Positions 1-39,516 of a stretch of 39,638 nt of DNA are shown piece by piece; within the stretch, counting starts at the first letter, position 1, and each line of letters opens with the position of its first letter. Origin of the DNA: a virus; IMG/VR virus record IMGVR_UViG_3300046838_000284, positions 1 to 39,638 of that record, one strand, 5' to 3'. The notes under the pieces were generated by a model that worked only from the letters and a program-made list of their open reading frames with translations, did not search any database and was not told the origin of the DNA. A program made the position numbers and the translations under genes.

Positions 1-182
1 CCTAGCAGCTTCCACTCCATCCAGCACGTAGGGCAGCGGGTTCCCTCGTAGTGGTCGATCTTGTGGGGGTCGCGCTGGACGTAGCGCCCAATCCCGGCGA
101 CAAGGACGCCGCAGAGAGAAGTCGCCGCCTTACCCCGCGACAAATGCCACAGTCCGGTTTGGCGTGGTTCCCAGCCAATCAT
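1..182 (-). CDS. Partial small Cys-containing protein, runs off left edge
   Basis: Reading leftwards from an ATG at 182-180, the frame stays open for 60 codons to the window edge, so the C-terminus is missing. A purine-rich ribosome site (AGGAGG) lies about ten bases upstream. The peptide has one Cys near residue 24 and a CPTC pair near residue 50, followed by WMEW. Short phage proteins with this Trp/His/Cys pattern are often zinc-ribbon proteins, but no function can be given. It would be the most distal gene of the leftward early operon seen here. Confidence 0.5.
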   Translation of the reverse strand, partial: MIGWEPRQTGLWHLSRGKAATSLCGVLVAGIGRYVQRDPHKIDHYEGTRCPTCWMEWKLL

Positions 183-219
183 TGCCCCACCGCCTCCTCT
201 CTTGTTCGGTTGGGGGTCA

Positions 220-444
220 TCATTCCTTCCGGATGTCGCCTTCGACCTTGCTTAGGGCGCTGACGATTGCGAGTAGGCCGTGGGCTTGGCGGCTACGCCA
301 CTCGGGCAGACCGGCTAGGTAGTCACCGGCCAGCGCGAACAGGAGGGCGCGGGCATCCTCGCGGGATTCGAAGACGACGGTGAACGGCTCCTCCAAGCTG
401 CGGAAGTCCGCCTCCAGACGCTCAACAACATCGCGTCCGCTCAC
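220..444 (-). CDS. Hypothetical protein, 74 aa
   Basis: A small acidic, mostly helical protein with no Cys and no membrane segment. Its ATG overlaps the stop of the gene before it (ATGA), the usual sign of translational coupling in this operon. I do not recognise the family. High-GC codon choice and the tight junction support that it is real. Confidence 0.6.
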   Translation of the reverse strand: MSGRDVVERLEADFRSLEEPFTVVFESREDARALLFALAGDYLAGLPEWRSRQAHGLLAIVSALSKVEGDIRKE

Positions 445-824
445 CGTCCCACCCCCTCCCGCTCAGACACTTCGGGAGTCGCAGTCATCTCGCCACCGAA
501 CTCGGCGGGGTAGAAAATGGTTCGGTCGGTTGGTAGGTCGGGGATGCAGCACGACGGGCCAGCCGTACCGTCTCTCTCGCTCAATTGTCCGGTCTTCTCG
601 ACCGCCCACCGCAGATTGCGAGACTGATGCTCGGCGATGTTGGCGGCAACCTCGTGGGTGTGGCGGCCTTCCCGCACTCCTTCGACTAGCTCGCCATCGA
701 CGTATCGCAGATGGGTGGCGACCGCCTCGCGAAGCGCGACAAGCTCGGCAAGAAAGCGAGAGGACATATCCCGCGAATTAGCTAGCTCCCGCAGCAACTC
801 GGCCTTTGTTGGAGATTTAGCCAT
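441..824 (-). CDS. Hypothetical protein, 127 aa
   Basis: Starts at an ATG whose first bases overlap the end of the preceding HNH-like gene. The first 85 residues are helical and charged, with long Ala/Glu/Arg heptad-like runs. The C-terminal third is looser, with a CC pair and many Gly/Pro/Thr. No known motif is visible. Its place among small early genes suggests an accessory role, but this is only inference. Confidence 0.6.
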   Translation of the reverse strand: MAKSPTKAELLRELANSRDMSSRFLAELVALREAVATHLRYVDGELVEGVREGRHTHEVAANIAEHQSRNLRWAVEKTGQLSERDGTAGPSCCIPDLPTDRTIFYPAEFGGEMTATPEVSEREGVGR

Positions 825-1395
825 GCGTCACCCGCTCAGACACTTCCTCCCACTCGGTGCCGCGCTCGGGGCATTCCAGTTTCAGGCGGGTAAGCATTGA
901 GGGGCGGGTGAAGATGCGGCGGCCCGTCAGGGATTCGACACTATGGCGGTGCCGCTTATCGACTTCGGCGCAGAACTCTTTGCACTCCTCGCTTACCTCG
1001 TCCCAGTAGATCCGCTCCTTCTTGATGTTGTCGTGGGCGGCGCGGCAGAGAGGGGCACCGATGCGGAGATCAAACAGGATCGCCAGCAGCTCATCTTCGG
1101 GGAGATCGGAGAAGTTGCGGCGAATCCATTGCTTCTCGACCAAGTGGTGGGCGTCAAGAACCCCATCGCAGTAGTGGATGCGCCGGTGGTAGCGGCCAAG
1201 CTGCTCGTAGTCCTGCGCCAGCCGCATATGTGTCGGCCCGAAGAAGCAGCCCCAGTCGGTGACGACCTCGTTGAACCGCTCCCGGGCCTTCTTCGCAGCG
1301 GCAGTCTCAGGCTTCCGGCCCCTCTTGAGTCCCTTCCGGGCTTTGGGGGTGCTGCTGGGTAGGGATAGCGGGTGGGGTTTGATCTGGTGGCTCAC
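817..1395 (-). CDS. HNH-endonuclease-like protein
   Basis: The frame is open further upstream, but the likely start is GTG at 1395-1393, which overlaps the TGA of the mIHF gene (GTGA). That gives 192 residues. The N-terminus is basic (residues 15-40, many Lys/Arg). The core DAHHLVEKQ at about 81-89 followed by PLCRAAHDN at about 115-123 resembles the beta-beta-alpha metal finger of HNH nucleases: a His pair, then a Cys and a His on the second strand/helix. The usual CxxC zinc pairs are not complete, so activity is uncertain. HNH proteins in phages act in DNA packaging, homing or recombination; here the gene sits in the early operon beside a DNA-bending protein. Alternative: a non-nuclease treble-clef protein. 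Confidence 0.6.
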   Translation of the reverse strand: MSHQIKPHPLSLPSSTPKARKGLKRGRKPETAAAKKARERFNEVVTDWGCFFGPTHMRLAQDYEQLGRYHRRIHYCDGVLDAHHLVEKQWIRRNFSDLPEDELLAILFDLRIGAPLCRAAHDNIKKERIYWDEVSEECKEFCAEVDKRHRHSVESLTGRRIFTRPSMLTRLKLECPERGTEWEEVSERVTHG

Positions 1396-1727
1396 GCGGC
1401 CACCGACGTCAGTTGCGGGAAGTTGAGCCGCAGGTAGGCCAGGACATCTTCGCGGCGCCCGATCGACACCGACTCCATCTGCACATCGGAGGGTAGTTTC
1501 AGCTTGGCGAAGACCCGGCGGGCCTTGGTCGACCCGATCCCGGGTGTGGCGAGTAGCAGGTCCATGAGTTTCATCGTCTGCAAGTAGGCCTCGTCTTCGA
1601 TCAGAACCTCGGCGAGGATCGCCGAGCCCTCGCGCAGTTCTTCCTTCAAGACAGAGCGGCGGTGGCGGATCTCGTTGGCGCAGTCGAGCGCCTTGCGGCG
1701 GCTTGCTTCGAGGACGGCGGGGTTCAT
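1392..1727 (-). CDS. Integration host factor of the actinobacterial mIHF type
   Basis: 111 residues, about the size of mIHF. The N-terminal half is a basic helix region; residues 59-76 hold LATPGIGSTKARRVFAKL, the helix-hairpin-helix (PGIG...A) that mIHF proteins use to bind DNA. Actinobacterial mIHF bends DNA and supports integration of mycobacteriophage L5. Its presence in a phage genome points to an actinobacterial host and to compaction, recombination or integration of phage DNA. No integrase is visible in the window. The start codon overlaps the preceding stop by ATGA. Confidence 0.8.
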   Translation of the reverse strand: MNPAVLEASRRKALDCANEIRHRRSVLKEELREGSAILAEVLIEDEAYLQTMKLMDLLLATPGIGSTKARRVFAKLKLPSDVQMESVSIGRREDVLAYLRLNFPQLTSVAA

Positions 1728-1999
1728 GTGGCCTCCTTTGCGTAGAAGCGCTCGTTTTCCCGGGTGAGCTTCTTGGCCTCGGCGCGAACCCGGTCCGGCA
1801 TCGGCTCCTCCTCGCTGGCAAGTACGACTAGGCAGGCGTTGAAGGCGAAGGGTTCGCGGAGCGAGGTCGCGGCAGCTCGAGCCCGCTGCTTGTCCTCATC
1901 GGAAGCGTGAACCGAGCAGGCAATGGCGTAATCGACGTATTCGCGGTTACTCATCCGCCCGGGGCTGCGGTACTTCGACCTCCAGGTCCTCTCCCTCAT
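1724..1999 (-). CDS. Hypothetical protein, 91 aa (or 76 aa from an inner start)
   Basis: Likely the first gene after the promoter candidate at about 2.1 kb. The first 15 residues are Arg-rich; a second in-frame ATG at 1954 would give 76 residues beginning MSNREYVDYA. The first ATG lies only a few bases downstream of a seven-base C/G hairpin that occupies the normal ribosome-site position, so the inner start may be the original one. The rest is helical with a charged C-terminus. Family not recognised. It is coupled to the mIHF gene by an ATGA overlap. Confidence 0.55.
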   Translation of the reverse strand: MRERTWRSKYRSPGRMSNREYVDYAIACSVHASDEDKQRARAAATSLREPFAFNACLVVLASEEEPMPDRVRAEAKKLTRENERFYAKEAT

Positions 2000-2002
2000 G
2001 AC

Positions 2003-2042
2003 TTCCCCCCCTTTTCGAAGGGGGGGTAAGGGGGGGTTCTAG
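2003..2042. repeat. C7/G7 palindromic element in the 5' leader
   Basis: Seven Cs (2005-2011), an eight-base spacer, seven Gs (2020-2026), then TAA and a second run of seven Gs (2030-2036). The first two runs form a strong hairpin on either strand. The layout resembles the C-rich dispersed repeats common in many bacterial genomes, which when mistranslated give PPYPP-type peptides. It sits just upstream of the ATG at 1999 and is unlike its surroundings in composition. Confidence 0.6.
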
Positions 2043-2100
2043 AGACACTACGGTTTGAACAACAGCAGCTAGGGTTCAAGCGGTAGCGTCGCGCTGGCGC

Positions 2101-2129
2101 GCAATAACACCGTCGTCCCCGTCTGTCAA
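2101..2129 (-). promoter_or_regulatory. Sigma-70-type promoter candidate for the leftward early genes
   Basis: On the minus strand a perfect TTGACA (2129-2124) is followed after 17 bases by TATTGC (2106-2101). Transcription would start near 2094, about 95 bases before the gene starting at 1999. The surrounding 277-base stretch (2000-2276) has no convincing gene. The -10 match is only partial. Confidence 0.45.
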
Positions 2130-2276
2130 CCTTCACTTGCTTACGCGTCTGTCGCTCCTCTGTCGAGCCGTACGTGTAGGCGACCGCTTTCGACCTTCCT
2201 TCCGATTGGCTACGGTGCGGGAGGTCGTTGGCGGGTGTGAAGATGGGCCAGCGGGGAGGTCGGGGGCGGGGGCGTT

Positions 2277-3014
2277 TCATGCAACTTCCGCGTCCCTAAT
2301 CGCACTACGGGACGGGAGCGGGAAGAGGCGAGGGTCCGAATCGGCGCTGGCGAGTGGATGGGACCTTTCAGCAGAACCCCGGTCCGCTGCCGCCTCCGCA
2401 GGCGACTCACTTCCAGCGCCGACTCCGACGCTCACGATGATGTTGGGTTCGCTGGCCGCGAAAAACCCACCGCCAGCCTCCCGCTGCTTCCACAGATCCC
2501 GCGCTACCTGCTTGCCCCGCTCCGTGGCTCTCCAGACATAGGAGGCCCGCCCGTGGGAGGCCAGACTCGATCCCCTGCGGTGCTCGACCTCCCCGCGGCG
2601 GTTGAACTTCTCCAGAAGCTGGGCTTTGGCGAGGGCGTTGACCGCGGCGCCGATCAGGTTCGGCTGCTCAAGCTCCCAGTCGGCGCAGTCATCGGCATGG
2701 AACTCGCCGGCCTCCGCAGCATGGAGGAGGATGTGCGCCCGCACCCAGCCATATTCACGGGAGCGCCAGGAGGCGAAGAGGGATTGGACGTCGGCGAGGC
2801 TCAGTGGGGGTAGGTGGCCGCCACGTGAACCGGTGCGAGACGCGTTCTCCCGCTTGCTCTGGCCCGTTATCCGGATAGACGTAGAGGGCTGTGGGTCGCG
2901 GTGCAAGTAGTGCCAGCGGGCTCTACAGCCTTCGCCGCAGAAGCGAGCGTCAGATCGATAGATGGTCAGCGGCTTGCCGCATTGGTCGCATCGGCGGGTT
3001 CCTTCCAATTTCAC
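2277..3014 (-). CDS. Zinc-knuckle plus winged-helix-like DNA-binding protein
   Basis: The open frame is longer, but the start is best placed at GTG 3014-3012, overlapping the stop of the upstream gene (GTGA), giving 245 residues. Residues 9-30 form a zinc-ribbon: CDQC, then FCGEGC (Cys at 9, 12, 26 and 30), followed by RARWHYLHRD. Residues about 75-190 look like a winged helix: an acidic helix pair, a helix with ALAKAQLLEKF, then a basic wing ending WRATERGKQVARDL. This suggests a DNA-binding regulator or a replication accessory factor. The C-terminal 45 residues are low-complexity. Target unknown. Confidence 0.55.
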   Translation of the reverse strand: MKLEGTRRCDQCGKPLTIYRSDARFCGEGCRARWHYLHRDPQPSTSIRITGQSKRENASRTGSRGGHLPPLSLADVQSLFASWRSREYGWVRAHILLHAAEAGEFHADDCADWELEQPNLIGAAVNALAKAQLLEKFNRRGEVEHRRGSSLASHGRASYVWRATERGKQVARDLWKQREAGGGFFAASEPNIIVSVGVGAGSESPAEAAADRGSAERSHPLASADSDPRLFPLPSRSAIRDAEVA

Positions 3015-3190
3015 CGCTCCATCGGCTCCTCGAATTCTTCGGGCCGTTCTTCCATGCGGTCCTGAATTGCGCTCCAGCGGCCCTCGAACTGGTCGTCTGG
3101 GTAGGAGATCGGGAGGAACTCGGGCTCTTGTGGAAGGTCGCGGGAGAGGTGAGGGGTGCCGAGCTCGTCTTCGAAGCGGGAGCGGTTCAC
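3011..3190 (-). CDS. Hypothetical acidic protein, 59 aa
   Basis: Begins at GTG 3190-3188, which overlaps the TGA of the Mom-like gene, and ends overlapping the next GTG. This double coupling supports it, although the start is not ATG. The protein is acidic with many Glu, Pro and Arg and no motif I know. Confidence 0.5.
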   Translation of the reverse strand: MNRSRFEDELGTPHLSRDLPQEPEFLPISYPDDQFEGRWSAIQDRMEERPEEFEEPMER

Positions 3191-3696
3191 GCTGGAGCCA
3201 ACTCCCTCGCTCGGCCGTCCTTGACGCGCAAGATCTCGGCGCGGGCCCGGTCGGGCCGCAATTCGAACACCCAGCGATCCTTGACCGCCTGCTGGGGAGA
3301 GGTGGGCGCCCAACTGCCATTGCCGCTCGGCGGCGGGAAGAGCCGGTGCCAGGTCGGCGCGTGCCGCCAATTACAGGCTTTATAGAGCGCTCCGGTGTGT
3401 CCCTGCGAGGGGTCTGAGTAGCTGACGACTGTTGTGATCTCGGGCCGTTCCGCCCTCAGCCACTTGGCGATCCGCGACCATTGCCGCGAGCCGCCATTCG
3501 GGACGCCAACCAGACACCAGCGGATCAGCTCGAGCCAACGGTCGTGCGGCAGGTAGCGGGAGCTGGGGTTGGCGAATACCGCGACTCCGAACTCATCGGA
3601 CCATGCGAAGCCACGCTGGGCCCGCCCTAGATAATGGTTCGCGTCAAGGAAGGCGGCGACTTCGGAGGTCCGGCAGGTTGGATCGAGCAGGCTCAC
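3187..3696 (-). CDS. Mom-like DNA modification protein (GNAT-type fold)
   Basis: 169 residues. The N-terminal NHYLGR (20-25), a strand with FGVAVF (36-41), LELIRWCLV (55-63) and above all SYSDPSQGHTGALYKA (92-107) match the pattern of phage proteins related to Mom of phage Mu. The Mom family uses an acetyltransferase-like fold to modify adenine in phage DNA, protecting it from restriction enzymes. It lies directly downstream of the SSB-like gene and starts one base into that gene's last codon, within an early operon of DNA-handling genes. The match is from remembered family features, so the modification itself is inferred. Confidence 0.6.
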   Translation of the reverse strand: MSLLDPTCRTSEVAAFLDANHYLGRAQRGFAWSDEFGVAVFANPSSRYLPHDRWLELIRWCLVGVPNGGSRQWSRIAKWLRAERPEITTVVSYSDPSQGHTGALYKACNWRHAPTWHRLFPPPSGNGSWAPTSPQQAVKDRWVFELRPDRARAEILRVKDGRARELAPA

Positions 3697-4463
3697 TAGA
3701 ACGGAATTTGGTCGTCGGCGGTCGGCCTCGGCAACGGTTCCCCGGTCGCCTTCACGGTCCGCTCGCTGAGCCGCTTCACCGCCGCCGCCCTGCGGGTCTC
3801 GTTTTCAAGCAGTTCGATCGCAGCGTCCTGTTCCTCTGCCGTGAATGCGGTGAGGACGTGATCGCTGATCGTCCGAGCTGCGACGTCGTTGACCCCGGCT
3901 GCTTCAAGTAGGACGGCGAGGCGTTCGTGGGTGGCCTGGCCGTTGTTCTGCGAGGAAGACGGAGGCGATGAACGAGACGCCTCGGGTTGCGCGTCGCGAC
4001 CCCCGCCTTCCGTCGCAGCTTGTGAGACCGCGGCCGTCTGCCTGTCGAGCGCATCGGCCATGAACTTCAAGAGCGCCATCCGGTTCGTGAGCGCCTCCGT
4101 GTCGGCGTCAGCCGGGAGCCGCTCGAGGTTCTCGGAGGCGACAAGGAGGTTGTGGGCGTGGCGGGCGCCGGCGATTTCCTCTGGGGGCCGAGGCTTGTAG
4201 TTGCCGCCACCGCCGGAGCTTGTGCCTTCCCGTGGCTTGCTCGCCTTGCGGAACCGCCACTTGCCGTCTTTCTGGAAGAACTCGCCCTCGATCGACTCCC
4301 CGACAACCGGGTCGCCGGTCCCCTGCTGCTTGCCCCAGTTGGCCTCGAAGTCCGCGCCGTTGCGGTCGAACACGCAGTCGTAGAAGGTCAGCTTGACCTT
4401 GCCGTCATCGCTGTTCCAGTCCCGGCCCTCGCCGAAGCTCTTGACGGAGGTTGTCTCGCTCAC
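3696..4463 (-). CDS. Single-stranded DNA-binding-like protein
   Basis: 255 residues ending in TADDQIPF, which closely matches the acidic, Phe-ending tail that SSB proteins use to recruit repair and replication partners. The first 85 residues are beta-rich with a basic, aromatic pattern (KVKLTFYDCVF, GEFFQKDGKWRF), consistent with an OB-fold. A Gly/Ser linker and a helical, Ala/Glu-rich middle precede the tail. It likely coats phage single-stranded DNA. It is not a standard SSB in length or core sequence, so it may be an analogue. It is coupled to the genes on both sides. Confidence 0.55.
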   Translation of the reverse strand: MSETTSVKSFGEGRDWNSDDGKVKLTFYDCVFDRNGADFEANWGKQQGTGDPVVGESIEGEFFQKDGKWRFRKASKPREGTSSGGGGNYKPRPPEEIAGARHAHNLLVASENLERLPADADTEALTNRMALLKFMADALDRQTAAVSQAATEGGGRDAQPEASRSSPPSSSQNNGQATHERLAVLLEAAGVNDVAARTISDHVLTAFTAEEQDAAIELLENETRRAAAVKRLSERTVKATGEPLPRPTADDQIPF

Positions 4464-4711
4464 ACCGCACCCCCAAGCTCCGCCAGCAGGTCGGCCAGCG
4501 AGGCCCTCTGCTTGACGATCTTCAGGTGAAGGTCAGAGCGCTCGTAGTGGGTGGCGACCTTTCCGGCATCGCGGAGGATTTCGTCGGCTTCTGAGACATA
4601 TCCGGCGATGAAGTCCTCGGGCTCGGCGCCGAGCTCCTCTCGCATCCTTGTGATCCGGTCGTTGATCGGGTCGGGGACGGGGCGAAGGTGTTTGAGTTTG
4701 AAGGCGCTCAT
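4460..4711 (-). CDS. Hypothetical helical protein, 83 aa
   Basis: Predicted mostly helical and charged, without Cys or membrane segments; the N-terminus is basic and the C-terminus ends in an amphipathic Leu-rich helix. ATGA overlaps on both ends place it in the early operon between a membrane protein and the SSB-like gene. Family unknown. Confidence 0.6.
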   Translation of the reverse strand: MSAFKLKHLRPVPDPINDRITRMREELGAEPEDFIAGYVSEADEILRDAGKVATHYERSDLHLKIVKQRASLADLLAELGGAV

Positions 4712-4932
4712 CGCCAGCCCACCTTCGTCTTGCCGGTGTGGTTCTCAGCCGGTCCCCTGCTGCCCCCCAAAACCCGGTAGGGCTTCTCTTCTTCGCGCTG
4801 TAGTTCCTCGGCCAGTCTGCGGGCCTTGCGCTCCAGCTCGCGCTGGTCGCGGCGGATGATGGCGTGGTAGCGGAGCCAGCCCCAGCCATAGAGGACTACG
4901 AGGATGCCGCCGCTGACATAGAGGATGGTCAC
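4708..4932 (-). CDS. Small membrane-anchored coiled-coil protein, 74 aa
   Basis: Residues 3-20 (ILYVSGGILVVLYGWGW) are one membrane helix; residues 25-50 are a charged coiled-coil-like helix rich in Arg and Glu; the tail is short and polar. Likely a single-pass inner-membrane protein with its helix in the cytoplasm. Function unknown. Confidence 0.6.
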   Translation of the reverse strand: MTILYVSGGILVVLYGWGWLRYHAIIRRDQRELERKARRLAEELQREEEKPYRVLGGSRGPAENHTGKTKVGWR

Positions 4933-5123
4933 GGGGAGGCCTCCTCCGCCACGACCTCACGGAAGCGCCGCGACTGCATCCGCGCTTTCGGATGCATTTC
5001 CCCAACGCGCCCACGGCAGAGCGATTTCCCCGACCACGACTCGGTGGGCAGTTTGCCGACCCTTCGACAATGGGGACAAACGTCGAGCCGAACCTCAAGG
5101 GGCTTGGTGGCGACCGGAGGCAT
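4929..5123 (-). CDS. Small zinc-ribbon-like protein, 64 aa
   Basis: Residues 16-19 are CPHC, and a third Cys follows at about 36 within SLCRGR, with a His at about 44 as a possible fourth ligand. The C-terminus is basic, then acidic. Likely a zinc-binding small phage protein. The ATG at 5123 shares a base with the stop of the ParB-like gene upstream. Confidence 0.5.
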   Translation of the reverse strand: MPPVATKPLEVRLDVCPHCRRVGKLPTESWSGKSLCRGRVGEMHPKARMQSRRFREVVAEEASP

Positions 5124-5872
5124 TAGACCTTCGCCAACACCTTGAATGCTGCGCGAAGGGATGCGGCCTTCGACTTACCAGTATCGAAATGTATCTCCTC
5201 GGCTTTGCGGAACAACGCACTCGGGGTTGTTTTCTCCAGCTTGCGGGTGAGAGCGGTGCGAGAGAACCCGCCATTGCTCGTCTTCTCCTCGATGACATCC
5301 GCAAGAGCCCTGATCGAACTAGCGGTCAGGGCCTTCTTGTCGTTCGGCCATGCCTGATGCACCACCGTGAGCAGTTGAACAAGGCCCTGCTCCCCAAGCG
5401 CGTTGTAGGCGTAATAGAGCGCAGCAGGCGCTCCGATCGCACGTGAAGACTCAGAGTCCGAGATCGAGAAACCCGCCGCCTCGGTCGCACGCTCAATGGC
5501 GAGGGCCGCAGGCTCCTTCGCACATCTCTTTCCTTCATGCTTCTCTAGTGGAGTGAGTTGCTTGCGGAACTCGTTGATCCGAACAAAGATCGCGGCCTCG
5601 TCTTCGATCTTTGGCACGGTGAAGACGACCGCCGGGACCCTGCTGGGTGGAGTCTCAGAGGAAAGGACGCCCCGAAGCCGCTGCTGCCCGTCGGCGCAGT
5701 AATACAGCTCAGCTTCGCTGCGCCTGAAGAGAACTAGCGCCCCAAACAACTCCCAGCGCGGGTCCGATGCGATAGCCCCAATCAGCGCGGCCTTCTCGGG
5801 ACGCTGGTATCTATGGTCAACCACTACCCTGCGCGGGTCAACCATGGTTTGCTTCCCAGTGAAATCCTCCAT
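5123..5872 (-). CDS. ParB/Srx-superfamily protein (DUF6551-like)
   Basis: 249 residues. It opens with a short beta region ending in RVVVDHRYQRP, then YCADGQQRLRGV (58-69) and VPAVVF, the arrangement of ParB-fold nucleotide/DNA-processing domains in phage proteins. Residues 85-110 (AIFVRINEFRKQLTPLEK) match the segment that follows in this family. The C-terminal two thirds are helical. Such phage ParB-like proteins are thought to act in DNA replication or segregation or as nucleases; the exact role here is unknown. Its start overlaps the previous ParB-like gene's stop by one base (TAATG), so the two are probably made together. Confidence 0.6.
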   Translation of the reverse strand: MEDFTGKQTMVDPRRVVVDHRYQRPEKAALIGAIASDPRWELFGALVLFRRSEAELYYCADGQQRLRGVLSSETPPSRVPAVVFTVPKIEDEAAIFVRINEFRKQLTPLEKHEGKRCAKEPAALAIERATEAAGFSISDSESSRAIGAPAALYYAYNALGEQGLVQLLTVVHQAWPNDKKALTASSIRALADVIEEKTSNGGFSRTALTRKLEKTTPSALFRKAEEIHFDTGKSKAASLRAAFKVLAKV

Positions 5873-6744
5873 TATTGATCCTTCCTATAGGTCAGGGTCA
5901 GTTTTGCTTTCTGGCTGCGAGGTTCAAGGTCGGCGCGGGCTGCCTCAAGACCCGCGATCAAGCTGTCGATCCGCTTTAGGCGGTTGGTCGCCTCACGCGG
6001 GTTGAGATGTGCGAACTCGTAGTCGCGTTTCTTCCATGCGGCGAGGTAGCGCGTTAGGGGCTCAGTGGACTCCTGCCACTTGTCCCCCTTGCCGAAGTGA
6101 GTTACTGGCTGCTCGCGGCCCGACTCGTCAGTCTTGGTCGGAAGTCCATTGGACGGCTTCGGGAACACCTTGCGGTGGGCTGTGTTGACCTTCCCCGTCC
6201 GATCCATCTCCTTCACGGCCTCCTGCGCGACGGAATCGCCAGCCTCAGCGGCTTCGACTACCTGCTTCGCGTGCAAATAAGTAAAGCCTGAGATTCCCAG
6301 AGCGTCCCCGACTTTCTCCCGAGTGCCGCCATGGGACGCTTTGGTAGATTCTCCGGAAGCGTTTCGGCCCGGTGCAGTTTTGCCGTGAGCTTGCCGGTCC
6401 CGCGCCTTCGGCCTCTCCAGCTCTTCAAGCTTTCTCCCGAGCGCGACGTACTCAGTTGGCTTGAACGGCTCCCGGCAGATGTTCTCGTCGCGCTCCGCGA
6501 TCAGCTTCTCGACTGCGCCATCGAAGTCATCGCGGATATAGACCTCGATCTCTTTGCGGCCTAGCTGCTTGTATGCGGCGAGCCGGCGAGCCCCAGCGAG
6601 GAGTGTCCCGTCCGAGCGGATCAGAATCGGCTCCAGAAGTCCGTCGTTCTCCTCAATGCTCTTAACCAGAGCATCGAGGCCGTTCATGTTCTTGCGTGCA
6701 CGAATGCCGACCTTGATCTCATCGACAGGCCGAGTTGCGGTCAC
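5872..6744 (-). CDS. ParB/RepB/Spo0J-family protein
   Basis: 290 residues. The N-terminal ParB domain shows LVKSIEENDGLLEPILIR (27-44), LLAGARRLAAYKQLG (48-62) and ERDENICREPFKPTEY (84-99): the dimerisation/CTPase-type core and the start of the helix-turn-helix region. A basic linker (about 110-140, AHGKTAPGRN) precedes a helix-turn-helix (REKVGDALGISGFTYLHAKQ). It lacks a neighbouring ParA, so plasmid-type partition is not implied. It could be a DNA-binding regulator, recombination factor or partition-like protein of the phage. Confidence 0.75.
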   Translation of the reverse strand: MTATRPVDEIKVGIRARKNMNGLDALVKSIEENDGLLEPILIRSDGTLLAGARRLAAYKQLGRKEIEVYIRDDFDGAVEKLIAERDENICREPFKPTEYVALGRKLEELERPKARDRQAHGKTAPGRNASGESTKASHGGTREKVGDALGISGFTYLHAKQVVEAAEAGDSVAQEAVKEMDRTGKVNTAHRKVFPKPSNGLPTKTDESGREQPVTHFGKGDKWQESTEPLTRYLAAWKKRDYEFAHLNPREATNRLKRIDSLIAGLEAARADLEPRSQKAKLTLTYRKDQ

Positions 6745-7139
6745 GCCAGCCCCCGCTTCTCACGCCCCGGCTTCATCCAAGGGTTCCGAGCAAGCGCCTG
6801 CCGATAGCGCTCGCCCGCTTCGGCCTCGGCGTCTTTCAGCGCGGCCATCAGGTCGCGGTCTGCCTTGGTCCCGGCTTTACTCAGGGCGCCGATCAGGGCA
6901 TTGAGTTGGCCGCTATCGAGCGTTACGGCCTCGATGATGTTGCCGCGGGTGCTGACGATTGCCAGTTGCACCGCTTCCCCGTGGGGGCAGACGCGAACGC
7001 GGACCTTGCGGCCCTCAGTTGTCGGGACCTCCCACCCCTTGTCCTCTGCCACGTGGGGAGAGCATCCGTCTGGGAGGAGCTTCAGGGGAACGGGCTCGGC
7101 GGATGGGTGACGAACGGGGGCGAGAAGTGCTGAGGTCAT
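6741..7139 (-). CDS. Hypothetical protein, 132 aa
   Basis: Beta-rich middle (residues 35-80, VRVRVCPHGEAVQLAIVS) followed by helices with Ala/Glu/Arg and ending WMKPGREKRG. No catalytic motif seen. It is coupled to the neighbouring genes by ATGA overlaps. Family unknown. Confidence 0.6.
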   Translation of the reverse strand: MTSALLAPVRHPSAEPVPLKLLPDGCSPHVAEDKGWEVPTTEGRKVRVRVCPHGEAVQLAIVSTRGNIIEAVTLDSGQLNALIGALSKAGTKADRDLMAALKDAEAEAGERYRQALARNPWMKPGREKRGLA

Positions 7140-7387
7140 GCGGCTGCCCCGCCATTCCGGTCAATCTTCCGAATCGTGATCTGGGTTGTGCCGGTAGTCG
7201 GATAGGCGTTGGTCTTCGCTTCGTAGTCGGGTCCGAGTTGCGGGCAGTAGTCGCCTTGCGGCCCGAGGTGGAATGCATTGCGCTCACCGTTCTCCAAGTT
7301 GACCGTCGAGATCAGCAGCCCCTCGCCTAGCTCCCGTTTCTCAGCTTCGAAGCGGTCGAGAATCGCGTTACGTTCTGCGGTGTTCAT
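7136..7387 (-). CDS. Hypothetical protein, 83 aa; its 5' end is duplicated at the window's right end
   Basis: Starts at ATG 7387-7385, overlapping the stop of the gene upstream. The N-terminal 20 residues form a charged helix, the rest is beta-like with Gly and Tyr. Bases 7326-7387 of this gene recur exactly at 39512-39573, where the reading frame then leaves the homologous sequence. Function unknown. Confidence 0.6.
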   Translation of the reverse strand: MNTAERNAILDRFEAEKRELGEGLLISTVNLENGERNAFHLGPQGDYCPQLGPDYEAKTNAYPTTGTTQITIRKIDRNGGAAA

Positions 7388-7578
7388 GCGGTTGCCCTCT
7401 CGAACTCGCGGTCCTCGGCTGTCTCGCGCCAAGTCAGCCAGCGCCAGGCATAGGCGAGGTTCATGGCGAGGTGGGCGAGGTAGCCGCAGTCGTAGTGGCA
7501 CTCGTTCTCGTAGAAGCGGGAAGGGAGCAGGCCATATTTCACGGCGTTCCCAATCGCCCGCGCCCTCACCAGCCGCAC
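7384..7578 (-). CDS. Hypothetical protein, 64 aa
   Basis: Helical, with aromatic residues and a CHYDC stretch in the middle and a Trp-rich turn (YAWRWLTWRE). The 3' part (7384-7452) is repeated exactly at the right end of the window. It overlaps both neighbours: its start lies within the gene above, and its end overlaps the next ATG. Family unknown. Confidence 0.5.
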   Translation of the reverse strand: MRLVRARAIGNAVKYGLLPSRFYENECHYDCGYLAHLAMNLAYAWRWLTWRETAEDREFERATA

Positions 7579-7784
7579 CTTTCACAGAACGGCGCTGGCG
7601 GCACAAAGGCGGGAGCTTCTTGCGCCTCGCCCCAGCCCTCGAGAGGAATGATCCGCCCGCACTTGGTACGGACGAAGTCATGGCCACCGTTGGCCACGTC
7701 ACCCCTGCGGGTGCGGTGCCAAGTGCCAGCGCTTGACCGAATCAGGTAGGGCCAGTGGGGCGAGCGGATGGGCGTGCCGATCAC
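7566..7784 (-). CDS. Small zinc-knuckle-like protein, 72 aa
   Basis: Contains TWHRTRRG, a single Cys in VRTKCGRII and a C-terminal CERCGW. This His/Cys spacing is frequent in small actinophage proteins that probably bind zinc. It is the first coding gene after the operator-rich control region at 7.80-7.96 kb, so it is probably the first gene of the leftward transcript controlled there. Confidence 0.5.
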   Translation of the reverse strand: MIGTPIRSPHWPYLIRSSAGTWHRTRRGDVANGGHDFVRTKCGRIIPLEGWGEAQEAPAFVPPAPFCERCGW

Positions 7785-7803
7785 GCCGCCACCCCCAGGT
7801 TGA

Positions 7804-7961
7804 CATAACCACCAGCCTGTACTCTGAGAACTTCGCTTAAATTAGTGCGTGATTTGCAGGACTTCTCCGCATAACACTGGTGGTTATGACTACCCCGGGG
7901 ACAAAAAAAAGCGGCGACTAGCGGCGATTCTTCGCCATTAGGACAGATAATGGTGGTTATC
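7804..7961. promoter_or_regulatory. Control region with three related operator-like repeats
   Basis: A palindrome CATAAC-N7-GTTATG lies at 7870-7888. A second palindrome GATAA-N6-TTATC lies at 7946-7961. A half-site CATAACCACCAG lies at 7804-7815. All share the core ATAACCACCA. The minus strand can be read as a 64-codon GTG frame here, but the repeats and a T-run argue for control DNA. The obvious candidate binder is the ribbon-helix-helix protein encoded just upstream. Confidence 0.55.
7908..7938 (-). terminator. Weak terminator candidate after the regulator gene
   Basis: On the minus strand GGCGA-AGAA-TCGCC (7937-7924) is followed by a second CGCC copy and then a run of eight Ts at about 7910. 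The stem is short, so termination may be partial. It lies between the ribbon-helix-helix gene and the genes to its left. Confidence 0.35.
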
Positions 7962-7971
7962 GTGCGTTGGG

Positions 7972-8148
7972 TCACGACTTCGCCCCCTCGGCCTCGACCT
8001 TGGCGAGATGGGCCTCGATCGCCACGTTGGCCTCGGCGGTCATCGTCCGGTGTTCGCGCTTCGCCAACTCTTGAAGGCGGCGGTGCGTCGAATGTGGAAG
8101 CCGGACCAAGACTGCCTGCCGCTCCCCGTTGTCGGTCTGCTTCGCCAC
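7972..8148 (-). CDS. Ribbon-helix-helix (Arc/CopG-like) regulator
   Basis: About 58 residues. After a short polar N-terminus comes RQAVLVRLPHSTHRRLQELAKREHRTMTAEANVAIEAHL-type sequence: a DNA-contacting strand (AVLVRLP), helix, turn and second helix typical of Arc/CopG/MetJ dimers. It probably represses promoters nearby, perhaps via the ATAACCACCA repeats next to it. Possible starts are GTG at 8154 or 8148. The -10 element of a strong promoter ends at 8156, so the second GTG lies where transcription should start, which suggests a leaderless message, common in actinobacteria. A TTG at 8157 is inside the -10 and can be excluded if this promoter is used. Confidence 0.7.
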   Translation of the reverse strand: MAKQTDNGERQAVLVRLPHSTHRRLQELAKREHRTMTAEANVAIEAHLAKVEAEGAKS

Positions 8149-8155
8149 TAGCACC

Positions 8156-8183
8156 AAGATATACGGTCACGCAGATATGTCAA
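8156..8183 (-). promoter_or_regulatory. Promoter of the ribbon-helix-helix gene
   Basis: Minus strand: TTGACA (8183-8178), 16-base spacer, TATCTT (8161-8156). TATCT occurs twice in the region as a direct repeat, possibly for self-regulation. Seven bases after the -10 is GTG. Confidence 0.6.
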
Positions 8184-8232
8184 GGGCGGAAAGGTAAGTC
8201 GCGCTACAGCATTCCCCGGACGTTGCGGCAAC

Positions 8233-8271
8233 AAAAAACGCCCCCGCTCCGAAAGGAACGAGGGCGTTCTT
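8233..8271 (-). terminator. Intrinsic terminator after the lysozyme-like gene
   Basis: Minus strand: a GC-rich stem (AACGCCC..CGTTCC paired with GG.GCGGGGGCGTT) with a TTTC loop, directly followed by six Ts. It lies about 30 bases beyond the stop at 8303 and separates the late/lysis transcript from the regulator gene. Confidence 0.85.
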
Positions 8272-8302
8272 GTAATTCCTGCGTCGGCAGGGTGACCACC
8301 TC

Positions 8303-8836
8303 CTAAGAGCAGACCCACTCCCCGGATCTGCCCTGCCGCCACATCCAGGCGGCGGCGAGGCTCTGCCATTTGGCCGAGTAGATGTCCCGGCCGCCGTAGG
8401 GCGTGGTCGCCCAGGTCGATGGGATGAACTGAAATAGCCCCGTCGACCCCGATGAGCCGTTGACCGCAAAGCGATTCCAGGTCGACTCGCACATCGAGAC
8501 GCTGAGCATCCAGCCTTCATCGGCCCCATAGGTCAGAGCCGCCCCGTGGATGCAATCGGGGATCGGACCGGCGTCGGAGCAATTCCCCCAGCGCAGCTTG
8601 TAGGCCCGGTGCTCGTAGAAGTGGCGCTGGTCTCGGCGCCACCTCGCCCGCAGCTTGCCGCGATAGCCGCAGCCCCGGGCTCGATTCAGTTGCCTGCGCT
8701 TCGCCGCCAGAACCTTGGTTGAGGGTGATCCCCTGCGCCAATGAGAAGGCGCCCACGTTCTAGCTGAGAATTGGCGAAACGATGCTGCTCCGTCGCATTG
8801 CCTTGCGGCGGTATTTGGGTGGCTCGGCGCGATCAA
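8303..8836 (-). CDS. Lysozyme/transglycosylase-like cell wall hydrolase, start uncertain
   Basis: The C-terminal 75 residues read as a lysozyme/transglycosylase-like fold: CESTWNRFAVNGSSGSTGLF, then FIPSTWATTPYGG and WQSLAAAWMW. The Glu of ESTWN is the likely catalytic acid, as in soluble lytic transglycosylases and Rpf-like enzymes. Residues 35-90 are basic. The first in-frame start is TTG at 8836, but the frame stays open to 8905. That 23-codon stretch encodes an N-terminal basic patch and a hydrophobic run (SNRKAWITPALLPIALVAAL) that looks like a signal peptide, without an ATG, GTG or TTG. A rare start or a one-base error may be involved. It would cut peptidoglycan during lysis or entry. 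Confidence 0.65.
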   Translation of the reverse strand: MIAPSHPNTAARQCDGAASFRQFSARTWAPSHWRRGSPSTKVLAAKRRQLNRARGCGYRGKLRARWRRDQRHFYEHRAYKLRWGNCSDAGPIPDCIHGAALTYGADEGWMLSVSMCESTWNRFAVNGSSGSTGLFQFIPSTWATTPYGGRDIYSAKWQSLAAAWMWRQGRSGEWVCS

Positions 8837-8978
8837 GGCAGCGACGAGCGCTATCGGCAGTAGGGCTGGAGTGATCCAAGCCTTTCTGTTGCTTGCAAGG
8901 TCGGCCTATTGCCAGGCCTTCCAGGAAGGGGGGTTGCTACGGTGGGCGCTCAACCACTACTCGGAGGGAGAACCCGAG

Positions 8979-9185
8979 ATGGACGACGACACGTTTATTA
9001 CCTGGGGCCAGCTAAAGCGAGCTGTCGAACGGGCGTCGCAAACAGCGGAAGGCTATTCCGAAAGCCGCGATCCACATGAAGAGATCGCGCAGGTCACAGC
9101 ATCAATGGCTTTGGCGCATTTGGAGTCAGCGCTCGATGAAGAGCGGCAGAGTGCCGAGCTGGCCGAGGAATTGAAAGAGACTTAG
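8979..9185 (+). CDS. Small acidic plus-strand protein, 68 aa
   Basis: A frame against the general direction. The best start is ATG at 8979, preceded by GGAGGGAG eight bases upstream; the frame itself extends further left without support. The protein is acidic and helical (WGQLKRAVERA, MALAHLESALDEE). It diverges from the lysozyme-like gene and converges on the next minus-strand gene. No family recognised. Confidence 0.5.
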   Translation: MDDDTFITWGQLKRAVERASQTAEGYSESRDPHEEIAQVTASMALAHLESALDEERQSAELAEELKET

Positions 9186-9322
9186 CGGGCCAGTTCTCCA
9201 ACCTTGCCCGCGAGCGGCAGCGGCCCTTCGGGGTCGCTTGTCGTTGAAGAGGAGGGGCGCAAACGCTCAGCGACTTTCTCGTCAGATGGGTCTCGCGGCG
9301 CTGCGCCCCACGTTCAAGCGAT

Positions 9323-9375
9323 CCTGATCTGGACCCCAATGGTGGAGGGGTCGCCGAATCGCTTTGAAGATCAGG
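9323..9375. terminator. Compound inverted repeat between converging genes
   Basis: CCTGATCT (9323-9330) pairs with AGATCAGG (9368-9375). Inside it GACCCC (9332-9337) pairs with GGGGTC (9347-9352). It lies between the plus-strand gene ending at 9185 and the minus-strand gene ending at 9371, so it could stop transcription from both sides. There is no long T-run. The rest of 9186-9370 shows no gene. Confidence 0.4.
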
Positions 9376-9559
9376 CTGCTTCTTCGGCGAGATCCTGAGC
9401 GGCGGTCGTCATCGCCGCCTCAAGCTCGGCCTTGGCCCTGCGTATCCGCTCGTTGAAATCGGGGTCGTGACGGGAACCTCTTTCGATCATCGCCAGTTCC
9501 TCGCGGATCTCCCTCATCTTGCGCTGTAGCCCCTGCTGCCGCAGGCTTGACTTACTCAT
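9371..9559 (-). CDS. Small coiled-coil protein, 62 aa
   Basis: Start taken at ATG 9559-9557 (MSKSSLRQQG); an in-frame TTG lies four codons earlier. The protein is nearly all helix with heptad-like spacing (LQRKMREIREELAMIERG, KAELEAAM) and an acidic end. The start codon lies at the centre of a seven-base inverted repeat. No function can be assigned. Confidence 0.55.
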   Translation of the reverse strand: MSKSSLRQQGLQRKMREIREELAMIERGSRHDPDFNERIRRAKAELEAAMTTAAQDLAEEAA

Positions 9560-9566
9560 AGTAAGT
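9550..9566. promoter_or_regulatory. Inverted repeat centred on a start codon
   Basis: ACTTACT and AGTAAGT flank the three bases that form the start codon at 9557-9559. It could be an operator or an RNA hairpin that hides the start. Confidence 0.4.
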
Positions 9567-9597
9567 AGCAAGGTAGAGGTCAGCTAGGACGCAGCGG

Positions 9598-10521
9598 CTA
9601 CGCGGTGAAGTCAACGGCCCGAGCGACTTTCCAGCATGCCCGGCAACGCCTGTAGGCAGGCTTGCTGGTCTGCTTACCGCAATCCTCGCAATGCCCCACA
9701 GCAGCAGCTTTGGCTCGATGTTTCGCCCGGAAGCTCTTTGTCCGACACTCCGGGGAGCAAAGCTTGCGGTACTTGTTCTCGGGCATGAAGGTTTTCCCGC
9801 AATGGGCGCATTGCTTCTCGCGCAGCTTCGCTCGGGCTGCGCCGCTGCATTTCCGGCTGCAATATTTGGCGCCAAAATAGGACCCCTTGAATCGCTTCCC
9901 GCAGATCCCGCAAGTGGAGAGGGCGCGATCCCCACGGAGCATCGTAGATTCGTGTTCAGCGAAAACGACGACAGTTCGCGGTCGCTCCGGGTCAAACTCG
10001 ACGGCGGCCATCACTGCGGTGACTTGAGAGTCGTCGTCCCATACCACTCCGGTCGCTGCGTCGAGGACGAGCTTGAGCATGTTGTCGGCATCGATCCGCT
10101 GGCGGTTCGGGCGGAAGAAGATGCATCCCACTGCCACATTGCTTTGGAAGGGCTTGATTTTGGCGCGGAACCGCCACGCAAGAGCTTCCTGGGCTGTCTG
10201 GGTGGCCTTGGGCGTGTAGCTGTGGCCGTTTCGGGTGAACCTCGCTCGCGCCTTGGAGGCCGGGTCGCCTTCTATGACCGCCACATCCATGCGGTTCGTT
10301 TGAGCATGGAGAGCGCTCACCATTAGCTCTGCGCGGGCTATGTCGCTCAGCTCAGCCACGGGGGTCATTTTCCCATCGCCCTCGGCCGTGACTTCCTCCT
10401 TCGGCGCAGGCGTTCCCGGTACTCGGAAGGAGACTCGGGCTGCCTCCCCCTGCTCCAAGGACGCGAGTGGCAGGGGAGAAGCCAGTCCATCGTCTCTTTG
10501 AGCGTGCAAGTGGGTTCCCAC
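9598..10521 (-). CDS. rusA: RusA-type Holliday junction resolvase with three C-terminal zinc knuckles
   Basis: 307 residues if GTG 10521 is used; TTG at 10509 or ATG at 10368 are alternatives, and no start has a clearly better ribosome site. Residues 80-185 are the RusA fold: IEGDPASKARARF, the catalytic stretch RIDADNMLKLVLDA (142-155) with the key acidic residues, and WDDDSQV (161-167). RusA cuts four-way junctions during phage recombination, repair or packaging. Residues 204-296 add three zinc knuckles with Cys at 204/207/221/225, 238/241/255/259 and 278/281/293/296, presumably for DNA binding. RusA proteins are usually about 120-140 residues, so this is about twice normal. A second RusA-like start (SFRVPGTPAPK, 31-41) lies near the N-terminus. 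Confidence 0.75.
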   Translation of the reverse strand: MGTHLHAQRDDGLASPLPLASLEQGEAARVSFRVPGTPAPKEEVTAEGDGKMTPVAELSDIARAELMVSALHAQTNRMDVAVIEGDPASKARARFTRNGHSYTPKATQTAQEALAWRFRAKIKPFQSNVAVGCIFFRPNRQRIDADNMLKLVLDAATGVVWDDDSQVTAVMAAVEFDPERPRTVVVFAEHESTMLRGDRALSTCGICGKRFKGSYFGAKYCSRKCSGAARAKLREKQCAHCGKTFMPENKYRKLCSPECRTKSFRAKHRAKAAAVGHCEDCGKQTSKPAYRRCRACWKVARAVDFTA

Positions 10522-36983: not shown

Positions 36984-37075
36984 CGCCCCTCCTGATCGGA
37001 GTTGAGGATGGCGGTTAGGAGAGATTGGCGAAACTCCTCAGGCCCCGCGCAGAGCCGATTCTCGCGGGCGATCAC
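36980..37075 (-). CDS. 31-residue small protein (possible)
   Basis: GTG 37075 with GGGGTGAG upstream; the frame ends in TGA overlapping the ATG at 36983 (ATGA). Polar and helical (IARENRLCAGPEEFRQSLL). It would be the first coding frame of the leftward operon. Confidence 0.35.
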   Translation of the reverse strand: MIARENRLCAGPEEFRQSLLTAILNSDQEGR

Positions 37076-37185
37076 GCTGGCTCACCCCGTAGATTTCCCC
37101 GATCTACCCCTAAACCGACTCCTTCACTCCCGTTCCGCCTCACTCGCGGATAGACTGGGAACCAACCCAAGTGGAGGTTGGCCAG
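37076..37185. promoter_or_regulatory. Divergent control region between late operon and regulator gene
   Basis: The 110-base gap between the leftward operon and the plus-strand winged-helix gene. It holds the inverted repeat GTAGAT-N7-ATCTAC (37089-37107), an operator-like site. A possible rightward -10 (TAGACT) lies near 37155, without a good -35. No other gene. Confidence 0.45.
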
Positions 37186-37677
37186 ATGAAGGTAGACATC
37201 GCCCAGATCATCAAGACGCTGAAAGCCAGCAAAAACGATCCTGCGGCAGCGATCAAGAAGGTTGAGCAGGAAGCCGACGACCGGGAACGCGAAGCTGCGG
37301 CATTGCGGGGTCTGGCTAAAACAATTCGGCTGTTGCCCGATGTTGATCTGCCAGAACCCGAACCGGCGACGCCCGAGCCTGCGCCTGCCTCGCCGCCCGA
37401 TAACGGCCGAGACGCGGTGCCTCAGGGCATCGACGCCGTTCGTCGCGTGATGCGGGAAGGCGGCGTCTGGAACGCCAAGGACATGTTGGCGGAGCTGACC
37501 CGACGCGGTTGGGAGCCGAAAGGGGCCAAACATCCCGTGCCGACGGTCGAAGCGGCTATGAATCGGCTGTTCCGCGTGAAAGGCGAGATCGAGCGCGTAG
37601 GCCGGGGCGAGTACACCTACAAAGGCTTTCCTGGCACCCCGACGCTTGAGACGCTGAGTGGGGGGGCAGAGCCTTGA
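37186..37677 (+). CDS. Winged-helix DNA-binding protein, divergent regulator candidate
   Basis: Start ATG 37186 with GGAGG nine bases upstream; an in-frame ATG five codons earlier has no ribosome site. 163 residues. N-terminal 50: helical coil (IAQIIKTLKASKNDPAAAIK, EADDREREAAAL). Residues 60-80: Pro/Glu/Ala linker. Residues 90-155 are a winged helix: IDAVRRVMREGGVWNAKDML, AELTRRGWEPKG, AAMNRLFRVKGEIERVGRGEY. The only sizeable plus-strand gene at the head of the leftward operon, so a repressor or activator of it is likely but not shown. Confidence 0.65.
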   Translation: MKVDIAQIIKTLKASKNDPAAAIKKVEQEADDREREAAALRGLAKTIRLLPDVDLPEPEPATPEPAPASPPDNGRDAVPQGIDAVRRVMREGGVWNAKDMLAELTRRGWEPKGAKHPVPTVEAAMNRLFRVKGEIERVGRGEYTYKGFPGTPTLETLSGGAEP

Positions 37678-37687
37678 GATAGGTAGC

Positions 37688-37725
37688 GGCTCCGGGTATC
37701 TCCCTTGACCAGGACACCCGGAGCC
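37688..37725 (+). terminator. Ten-base-stem hairpin after the regulator gene
   Basis: GGCTCCGGGT (37688-37697) pairs perfectly with ACCCGGAGCC (37716-37725) across an 18-base loop, ten bases after the stop at 37677. There is no T-run, so termination may need Rho. The rest of 37726-37872 holds smaller GACCCCG/CGGGGTC repeats and no gene. Confidence 0.5.
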
Positions 37726-37872
37726 ACCGACCCCGATAACAACGGCTCGGATGGCCCCTACGGGGTCGTCCGGGCCTTCATAACGACTTGCCGCATCGTA
37801 TCGAACGACGCGGCGAGAAACGGCCGAACCAGATGCCTTGCAACCGCTCTGGCCCGGCCGTCTCATCACCTT

Positions 37873-37958
37873 GCGGTCGTGGCGAAATTGGCAAACGCGG
37901 CGGACTTTCATCCCGCTGCGCGGTATCGCGCTTCCGGGTTCGAATCCCGGCGACCGCA
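37873..37958 (+). tRNA. Type II (Leu-like) tRNA with predicted UUC anticodon
   Basis: 86 bases. Acceptor GCGGTCG/CGACCGC (perfect seven pairs), TpsiC arm CCGGG-TTCGAAT-CCCGG, a long variable arm GCGCG/CGCGC with a GTAT loop, A at position 73, D-loop with GG: together a leucine-like type II scaffold. By position the anticodon is TTC (37907-37909), which reads GAA (Glu), not Leu. The anticodon stem has an A-C mismatch at 31-39. No CCA is encoded. It may be a degenerate tRNA or a miscoding/recoding tRNA. Confidence 0.65.
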
Positions 37959-38027
37959 CTTCCTTGTATAGCAGCCAATCACAAGCGGATGTGCCTGGAA
38001 TCGGCTTCTGCAAGCCAATTCCTGCTC

Positions 38028-38050
38028 CCTTTCCGTCCGACGGGAAGGGT
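38028..38050 (+). terminator. Long tight hairpin upstream of the transposase gene
   Basis: CCCTTTCCGTC and GACGGGAAGGG pair over 11 positions with one G-U and almost no loop. An AGCCAATC/GATTGGCT pair flanks it at about 37974 and 38053. It may shield the transposase gene from outside transcription. Confidence 0.35.
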
Positions 38051-38079
38051 AGGATTGGCTCAGTTGGTTTAAGAAAAGC

Positions 38080-38110
38080 GAGGCCCGCGACGCGCAAACG
38101 CCCGGGCCTC
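38080..38110. other. Hairpin in the transposase leader
   Basis: GAGGCCCG (38080-38087) pairs with CGGGCCTC (38103-38110) around 15 bases. It lies 24 bases before the GTG of the transposase gene and could limit its expression. Confidence 0.4.
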
Positions 38111-38133
38111 AGGACCACAGAGGTGATAGCTCG

Positions 38134-39261
38134 GTGGCCAGTTCCAAAGTACCAAGCCGCTCGGCAGTCTCCGAGCTTGCAGCCCTTCTCGACTCGCCTG
38201 AGATTTCGAGCCTGATTGGGGAACTTGAGGAAACCCGGTGGACTGGTCGCCCCGGTTATCCGATCCGCTCGATGGTCGGCATGGCCCTTGTGAAGGCGAT
38301 GTACGCCGTCCCGACATGGACCCGGACGGTGGCACTGGTCAGTGAGCATCCGGGGCTTTGCGCCGCTCTGGGATGCACTGACGGGGTGCCGAGTATCTAT
38401 GCCTGCTACCGCTTCACCGCGAAGCTCAGGCGATATGTCGATCTTCTTGCCTCCTGCATTGAGCGCGTAACCGTCGCCCTGCATGAGAAGCATCCCGATA
38501 TGGGCCGCGACCTTTCGGTGGACGCCTCCGACCTTCCCGCTTACGCCAACGGCCAGCGGTTTGTCAGCCACAACGGCCCCGAACGTGAGCGGTTCAGCGA
38601 CCCGGACGCATCCTGGGGCCACCGCTCCGCTGTCTCGACGCGCAAAGGGGGCGGCTTTTATGGCTACCGGGTCCACGCAGCGGTCTGCTCGCGCACCGGA
38701 CTGCCGGTCGCGTGGACGGTCGAGACGGCAAAGGCCAATGAATCCCGATACGCCGTTCGCCTGATCGACACCGCAAGGGCCCGTGGCTTCGCTGCCGAGA
38801 CTTGCGCGCTGGACAAGGGATACGACCTCACCGTCGTTTACGACGCCCTTGAGGACCGCGATTGTCGACCGATCATGCCTTTGCGCCAGACGCCGGGGGT
38901 GAAGCGGGGCGACCATCGGCCACCTCAATGCGAGCATGGCGAGTGGCGATTCGCCGGGAGCGATTATGGGCGCAAGGCGTCCAAGTGGCGCTGTCCTACT
39001 GGCGAGTGCAAGCCTGCAAGCCGGTGGGTCAAAGCTGACCGGCTGCACCCTTTGATTCCCCGCGAGACTTCGCGTTGGTCGAAGCTCTACAAGGGCCGCG
39101 CTTCGGTCGAGCGGGAGTTCGGACGGCTCAAGAACGAATGGGCGCTCTTGCCGTTGCGCGTTCGCGGGCTTGATCGGGTGGCTCTCCACGCTGACTTGAC
39201 GATCCTCGCGAAGCTCGCTTGCGCTCTCGCAAGGGCGCGAGCTGCGCCACTCACGGCTTAG
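38134..39261 (+). CDS. IS5/IS1182-like DDE transposase
   Basis: 375 residues from GTG 38134 with AGAGG about ten bases upstream. The N-terminal part (10-115) is the DUF772-like region (RWTGRPGYPIRSMVGMALVK). The catalytic triad appears as Asp130 (SVDASDLPAYANG), Asp227 (CALDKGYD) and Glu326 (GRASVEREFGRLKNEW). A Cys-rich insert lies between (CEHGEWRF, CPTGECK; about 266-292). The gene looks intact and probably encodes cut-and-paste transposition. It is the only gene of this type in the window. Confidence 0.9.
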   Translation: MASSKVPSRSAVSELAALLDSPEISSLIGELEETRWTGRPGYPIRSMVGMALVKAMYAVPTWTRTVALVSEHPGLCAALGCTDGVPSIYACYRFTAKLRRYVDLLASCIERVTVALHEKHPDMGRDLSVDASDLPAYANGQRFVSHNGPERERFSDPDASWGHRSAVSTRKGGGFYGYRVHAAVCSRTGLPVAWTVETAKANESRYAVRLIDTARARGFAAETCALDKGYDLTVVYDALEDRDCRPIMPLRQTPGVKRGDHRPPQCEHGEWRFAGSDYGRKASKWRCPTGECKPASRWVKADRLHPLIPRETSRWSKLYKGRASVEREFGRLKNEWALLPLRVRGLDRVALHADLTILAKLACALARARAAPLTA

Positions 39262-39282
39262 CCGACTGCCAAACTGCGGGCT

Positions 39283-39516
39283 GTGCTCACCGCCTTCGGG
39301 GCCAGCGCCGTGACGTTCATGATGGTCATGTACGCGCTTGAGCGCCGCCACAGGGGGTTCGTCCTCGCCTTCGCCTTCGGCTGTGCGCTGTCGAGCGCCT
39401 ACGGGTTCCTCGCTGGCACCTGGCCCTTTGGAGTTGTCGAGGCCATATGGGCTGTCATAGCCCTGCACCGATACCGAACGGGGCGTTTCGCTAGTCGTTT
39501 CGCCGAACCCTCCTAG
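39283..39516 (+). CDS. Small membrane protein, 77 aa (DUF6552-like)
   Basis: GTG at 39283 gives the full frame; ATG at 39319, 39322 or 39328 is also possible. Two membrane helices: 35-52 (FVLAFAFGCALSSAYGFL) and 56-70 (TWPFGVVEAIWAVIAL). The MYALERRH start and WPFGVVEAIWA motif resemble a small protein I remember from many actinobacterial chromosomes. It may be host sequence beside the transposase. Its stop TAG lies in the five bases shared by the repeat junction. Confidence 0.6.
   Translation: MLTAFGASAVTFMMVMYALERRHRGFVLAFAFGCALSSAYGFLAGTWPFGVVEAIWAVIALHRYRTGRFASRFAEPS

Follow-up and report, generated by a model that had tools for sequence, protein, structure and literature searches.

Mom is treated in passages of PMC7824862, PMC8281217, PMC11318856 and PMC6483171, so the occurrence of Mom-like genes in phages is already established, and the gene described here is an ordinary new member of the family. 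As stated in parts of PMC7824862, momylation is an acyl transfer to the N6 position of adenine, and the Mom enzymes of jumbo phages are typically fused to endonuclease domains. Passages of PMC8281217 place N6-methylcarbamoyl adenine among the phage modifications countering restriction, a section of PMC11318856 describes Mom-like proteins in Clostridium prophages, and part of PMC6483171 covers Com and mom.

The stretch of DNA analysed here, referred to as the window, comprises an entire IMG/VR virus record (39,638 bases; G+C content 64%; features listed in the table). The original prediction had singled out a Mom-like gene by the motif SYSDPSQGHTGALYKA, which was present exactly within the 169-aa ORF at 3187–3696 on the minus strand. 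Upon hmmscan, this ORF matched a single Pfam family, Mom (PF25680; E = 1.5e-12, 48.1 bits relative to a curated cut-off of 27.1), and a single PHROG family, 1384, "Mom-like DNA modification protein" (E = 4.1e-15); among the NCBIfam models XF1762 alone matched, below threshold. Phage records with a tblastn match numbered 75, every one with less than 60% identity, and the annotated Mom-like proteins among them aligned over residues 11–148 of the window protein. The presence of a Mom-like gene carrying the motif was thus borne out by Pfam, PHROG and close homologues, far beyond chance, and since profile, alignment and predicted structure agree, the assignment of the ORF to the Mom family as a genuine member, made from sequence and a model, is secure. 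Matches were also found in 18 plasmid records, mostly of sphingomonads, of which 11 were predicted to be conjugative; in the 15 of these 18 records listed, the Mom-like proteins were annotated as hypothetical.

Features of the window, with positions, strand and the matches on which the names are based
Feature	Position	Strand	Remarks
Actinobacterial-type integration host factor-like protein	1392–1727	-	NF041260 actino_IHF E 2.1e-13, H2TH_5 E 7.4e-5, both below cut-off
Zinc-ribbon + helical protein, next downstream of Mom	2277–3186	-	weak zinc-ribbon and HNH-type matches; L015 homologue 25% identity
Mom-family DNA modification gene	3187–3696	-	169 aa, GTG start; PF25680, phrog_1384, 8bv8 fold match
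Putative ssDNA-binding-like protein	3696–4463	-	255 aa; C-terminal DDQIPF tip; upstream of Mom
Small operon gene	4460–4711	-	83 aa; ORF with 4-base overlaps with neighbours; no Pfam or PHROG family
Small CxxC protein	4929–5123	-	64 aa; L015 homologue 44% identical
DUF6551 / ParB-like protein, DGQQR motif	5123–5872	-	PF20188 E 1.8e-11; phrog_1033 E 2.9e-20; L015 homologue 69% identical
ParB-like protein	5872–6744	-	phrog_12047 E 5.2e-25; L015 match 53% identical over residues 173–284
tRNA-Glu	37873–37959	+	near right end
DDE transposase	38134–39261	+	PF01609 E 4.2e-22

A model of the Mom protein, built from an alignment of 7 window and locus sequences, was of moderate confidence (mean pLDDT 74.5, pTM 0.74), with weak stretches at residues 1–4, 116–120, 122–128 and 161–169, the last three having pLDDT <50. 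When this model was searched against PDB with Foldseek, the top matches were both chains of Mu Mom (8bv8; E = 2.7e-5 and 3.1e-4), and comparison by VIA-align gave a Z of 14.8 and an rmsd of 4.0 Å over 158 aligned residues; the next structure, a GNAT-type acetyltransferase obtained through DNA shuffling, followed at Z 11.5. In a search of viral models, "Mom" of Salmonella phage FSL SP-031 was second in rank. The acetyltransferase (GNAT) fold that had been anticipated was therefore recovered in the predicted model, and in the structural comparison with Mu Mom that had been proposed, 8bv8 was the best of the solved structures. Because phmmer of the window protein against the 8bv8 sequence alone gave an E of only 0.16, the link to Mu Mom rests on profile and fold.

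When the window protein was aligned with Mu Mom and six further homologues, its S70 fell opposite S124 of Mu Mom, and the title of PDB entry 8bv8 names the inactive mutant S124A, from which title the inactivity is taken. Among the 13 sequences compared, 1) H21, E56, R59, G102, Y105 and A107 were identical in all, 2) D95 was kept in 12, with Ser in Paenibacillus phage Lena, and Y22 also in 12, with Cys in L012, and 3) S70 was kept in 11 and replaced by Thr in L012 and L013, so that Ser or Thr was found at this position in all 13. Residues other than the S124 equivalent are counted here for their conservation alone. The fold and iron binding of Mu Mom were reportedly the subject of a study in 2020.

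Since family profile, fold and conserved serine agree, the gene is best interpreted as one for Mom-like DNA modification that protects against restriction. It is likely that the product is a stand-alone, mobile, GNAT-fold acyltransferase of the Mom family that modifies adenine N6 in phage DNA, an activity predicted by homology to Mu Mom. The enzyme would add a small acyl-derived group, which in Mu is the methylcarbamoyl or momylation product, to adenine N6 of the phage's own DNA, and the DNA thus modified would escape cutting by restriction enzymes of the host. The substrate, the group and the target base may differ from those of Mu.

The same type of Mom was found in three other viral contigs (L009, L010 and L002/L011, the last being one contig fetched twice) and in two bacterial genome contigs, L012 from a Hyphomicrobiaceae MAG and L013 from a bacterial MAG, with 56–67% identity in the full alignment and 58–72% in the best tblastn segments. 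In a tree of the 13 sequences, the window protein and these five close relatives branched apart from the other seven with a support of 0.997. They have a Trp/Pro-rich C-terminal block of their own, APTWHxLxPPPSGxGSW...KDRWV, common to the four viral members and kept in L012 and L013. Across the 15 pairs within the clade, codon positions 1 and 2 were 58–75% identical and position 3 was 30–46% identical, a pattern as expected of a protein under selection; dN/dS was also computed, but with dS of 1.27–3.42, undefined in 4 of the 15 pairs, synonymous changes were saturated and the codon-position identities were therefore used alone. The separate branch and the clade's own block would also suit a protein with the Mom-family fold that transfers another acyl group or acts on another substrate (another base, RNA or protein) and is no N6-adenine momylase, as would the wide range of substrates on which GNAT enzymes generally act, many of them matching the model at Z 9.7–11.5. 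However, Mu Mom was clearly ahead of every other GNAT entry, and the residues conserved in Mom, the S124 equivalent among them, were kept, which makes such a divergent enzyme rather unlikely.

Comparison of 23 window ORF products with the contigs of the five relatives (tblastn, E up to 0.01) gave nothing but Mom matches. In L009 and L012 the flanks of Mom contain a C5 methyltransferase-like gene, in L013 an N6/N4 methyltransferase, and in L010 and L002/L011 lysin-like and integrase-like genes, as read from ORFs by eye; in Phynn, Mom directly follows a DNA methyltransferase-type gene according to the annotation. Because the flanks of the close relatives differ, Mom looks, on sequence comparison, like a single mobile cassette that is exchanged horizontally, and its position near methyltransferase-type genes in L009, L012, L013 and Phynn fits a role in DNA protection. 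In the window, this cassette would have been inserted in a run of genes of replication/recombination type, right after a putative ssDNA-binding gene.

The original prediction had also coupled Mom to this neighbour as an SSB-like gene. The overlap itself was confirmed, the neighbour ending one base into the start of Mom (TAGTG), and Mom would probably be translated by re-initiation at this site; the SSB identity fared less well, since no family, homologue or confident fold was recovered and the tip alone speaks for it. Family searches of the neighbour against Pfam, PHROGs and NCBIfam gave nothing meaningful and no SSB family match, phage tblastn gave no match, no homologue was confirmed in viral contigs, and a sequence search of PDB had a best E of 0.46 with unrelated names. 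A fold search with a single-sequence model of poor quality (pLDDT 47.8) gave nothing below E 0.66. The protein ends in ...TADDQIPF, an acidic tip terminating in PF, and we take its DDQIPF to be an acidic C-terminal tip of the SSB type. The tip pattern fitted 1 of 1550 stop-to-stop segments of at least 60 aa in the window and the loci scanned, L001, which duplicates part of the window, being excluded. Strands were predicted in the N-terminal part and, together with the tip, are compatible with SSB. Since homologue and fold searches gave nothing, "SSB" remains a guess from the C-terminus, and the gene is tentatively termed putative SSB-like.

Mom is located in a run of minus-strand genes of replication/recombination type, with the structural genes on the same strand. 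The start of the gene next downstream is ambiguous, the longest ORF (2277–3320) and another at 3011–3370 running into Mom in other frames. It was also noticed that the DUF6551 protein had sub-threshold NCBIfam matches to a DGQHR domain (E = 2.2e-4) and to DpdB (E = 0.1). Promoter-like and terminator-like matches in positions 1–10000 were no commoner than in shuffled sequences, and thus give no indication of timing; early expression of the operon, as originally proposed, would be a reading of the company of genes in which Mom is found, and the structural genes share that strand. RNA around the Mom start had no greater folding stability than shuffled versions (z +1.0; of 200 shuffles, 170 were at least as stable), and no Com gene was recognised. 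The CxxC protein is unlikely to be a Com-like regulator of Mom, because its homologue occurs in the L015 record, which lacks Mom.

The L015 sequence is part of a 59.9-kb viral contig that shares the ParB/DUF6551/CxxC operon with the window and has an ERF-type recombination gene. The whole L015 record gave no match to Mom at an E cut-off of 0.01 and contained two DNA methyltransferases, a C5 and an N6/N4 enzyme, whereas neither of these methyltransferase families was found in the window record, in which Mom is present. This is consistent with the replacement of one protective modification by another, in a single comparison of two records that are both possibly incomplete. A wider form of the idea, in which Mom and methyltransferases are interchangeable, within this phage lineage, in one replication-linked protection slot and Mom, co-translated with the SSB-like protein, decorates new DNA, possibly with a group or target other than that of Mu, is improbable.

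A match to the SSB-like protein was detectable in 0 of the 5 contigs carrying close Mom relatives, and in the stretches examined from Stickynote, TV54, Phynn, RaK2, Lena and Mu, in which many genes are "hypothetical", no gene adjacent to Mom was named as an SSB. The Mom-SSB pairing was thus seen in the window record alone and is not conserved among these relatives. These absences bear on the possibility that Mom and the SSB-like protein form a replication-linked pair, with modification of the nascent phage DNA taking place at the fork: the one-base overlap and the SSB-type tip would suit such a pair, but short overlaps are common throughout the operon and the neighbour has neither an SSB family match nor a confident fold, and we give this arrangement very little credence. 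That Mom in the window is a decayed or inactive remnant, as its short length and GTG start and the changes tolerated in the clade (Cys at Y22 and Thr at S70 in L012) might suggest, is scarcely credible given the open frame, the presence of all key residues in this copy, the 56–67% identity with relatives of the clade whose flanks are unrelated, and the codon-position constraint. The preferred reading thus remains a mobile Mom-family enzyme predicted to modify adenine in the phage's own DNA.

Based on the integration host factor-like protein, the host of the window virus may well be actinobacterial, although one close Mom relative lies in the Hyphomicrobiaceae MAG contig. The record ends in a stretch of 127 bases (39512–39638) that is an exact direct repeat of 7326–7452. 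A length of 127 bases is typical of an assembler k-mer, and because the repeat is exact and of this length, 7326–7452 is probably an assembly branch point. The join of 1–7325, which contains Mom, to the structural genes via this segment is plausible, not certain, since phage-type genes are present on both sides. The right end (about 37–39.5 kb), with the tRNA and the transposase, may be host or insertion-element DNA and not phage. An 848-aa ORF in the same region (37072–39618, minus strand) was rejected as spurious; it had no Pfam or PHROG match and overlaps the transposase and the tRNA on the other strand.

The chemistry of the Mom family is unusual, and the gene adds to it a small, well-conserved branch made up of the window record, the three other viral contigs and the two bacterial genome contigs, leaving the picture of the family unchanged; one more group of phages is thereby flagged as likely to have modified virion DNA. 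The PHROG 1384 proteins of Enterococcus, Corynebacterium, Klebsiella and Paenibacillus phages belong to the same family, with 25–34% identity across the aligned portion for the 40 records listed out of 75, but differ from the window clade, which has its own C-terminal block and other gene neighbourhoods. Compared with the jumbo-phage fusions of Mom and endonuclease described in parts of PMC7824862, the Mom domain is common to both and the window gene is stand-alone. A 505-aa protein encoded at L014:4002–5519 (plus strand) has a C-terminal Mom domain (PF25680, E = 2.8e-20), preceded by zinc-ribbon and Vsr/DUF559-like nuclease stretches seen by eye; it resembles the fusions in those parts of PMC7824862 and was the only such protein seen here.

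Relative to Mu Mom (NP_050657.1), with which it shares the GNAT-type fold as its best structural match, the window protein is shorter (169 aa versus 241 aa; 20% identity), lacking the N-terminal and part of the C-terminal region, and its S70, D95, R59 and Y105 correspond to S124, D149, R111 and Y159 of Mu Mom (241-aa numbering). A stand-alone Mom of 169 aa could be a convenient enzyme with which to find the regions that Mu Mom requires. Unlike the com-mom pair at the right end of Mu, the window gene has neither a recognised Com gene nor an unusual RNA structure at its start, and it is located in a replication-type operon.
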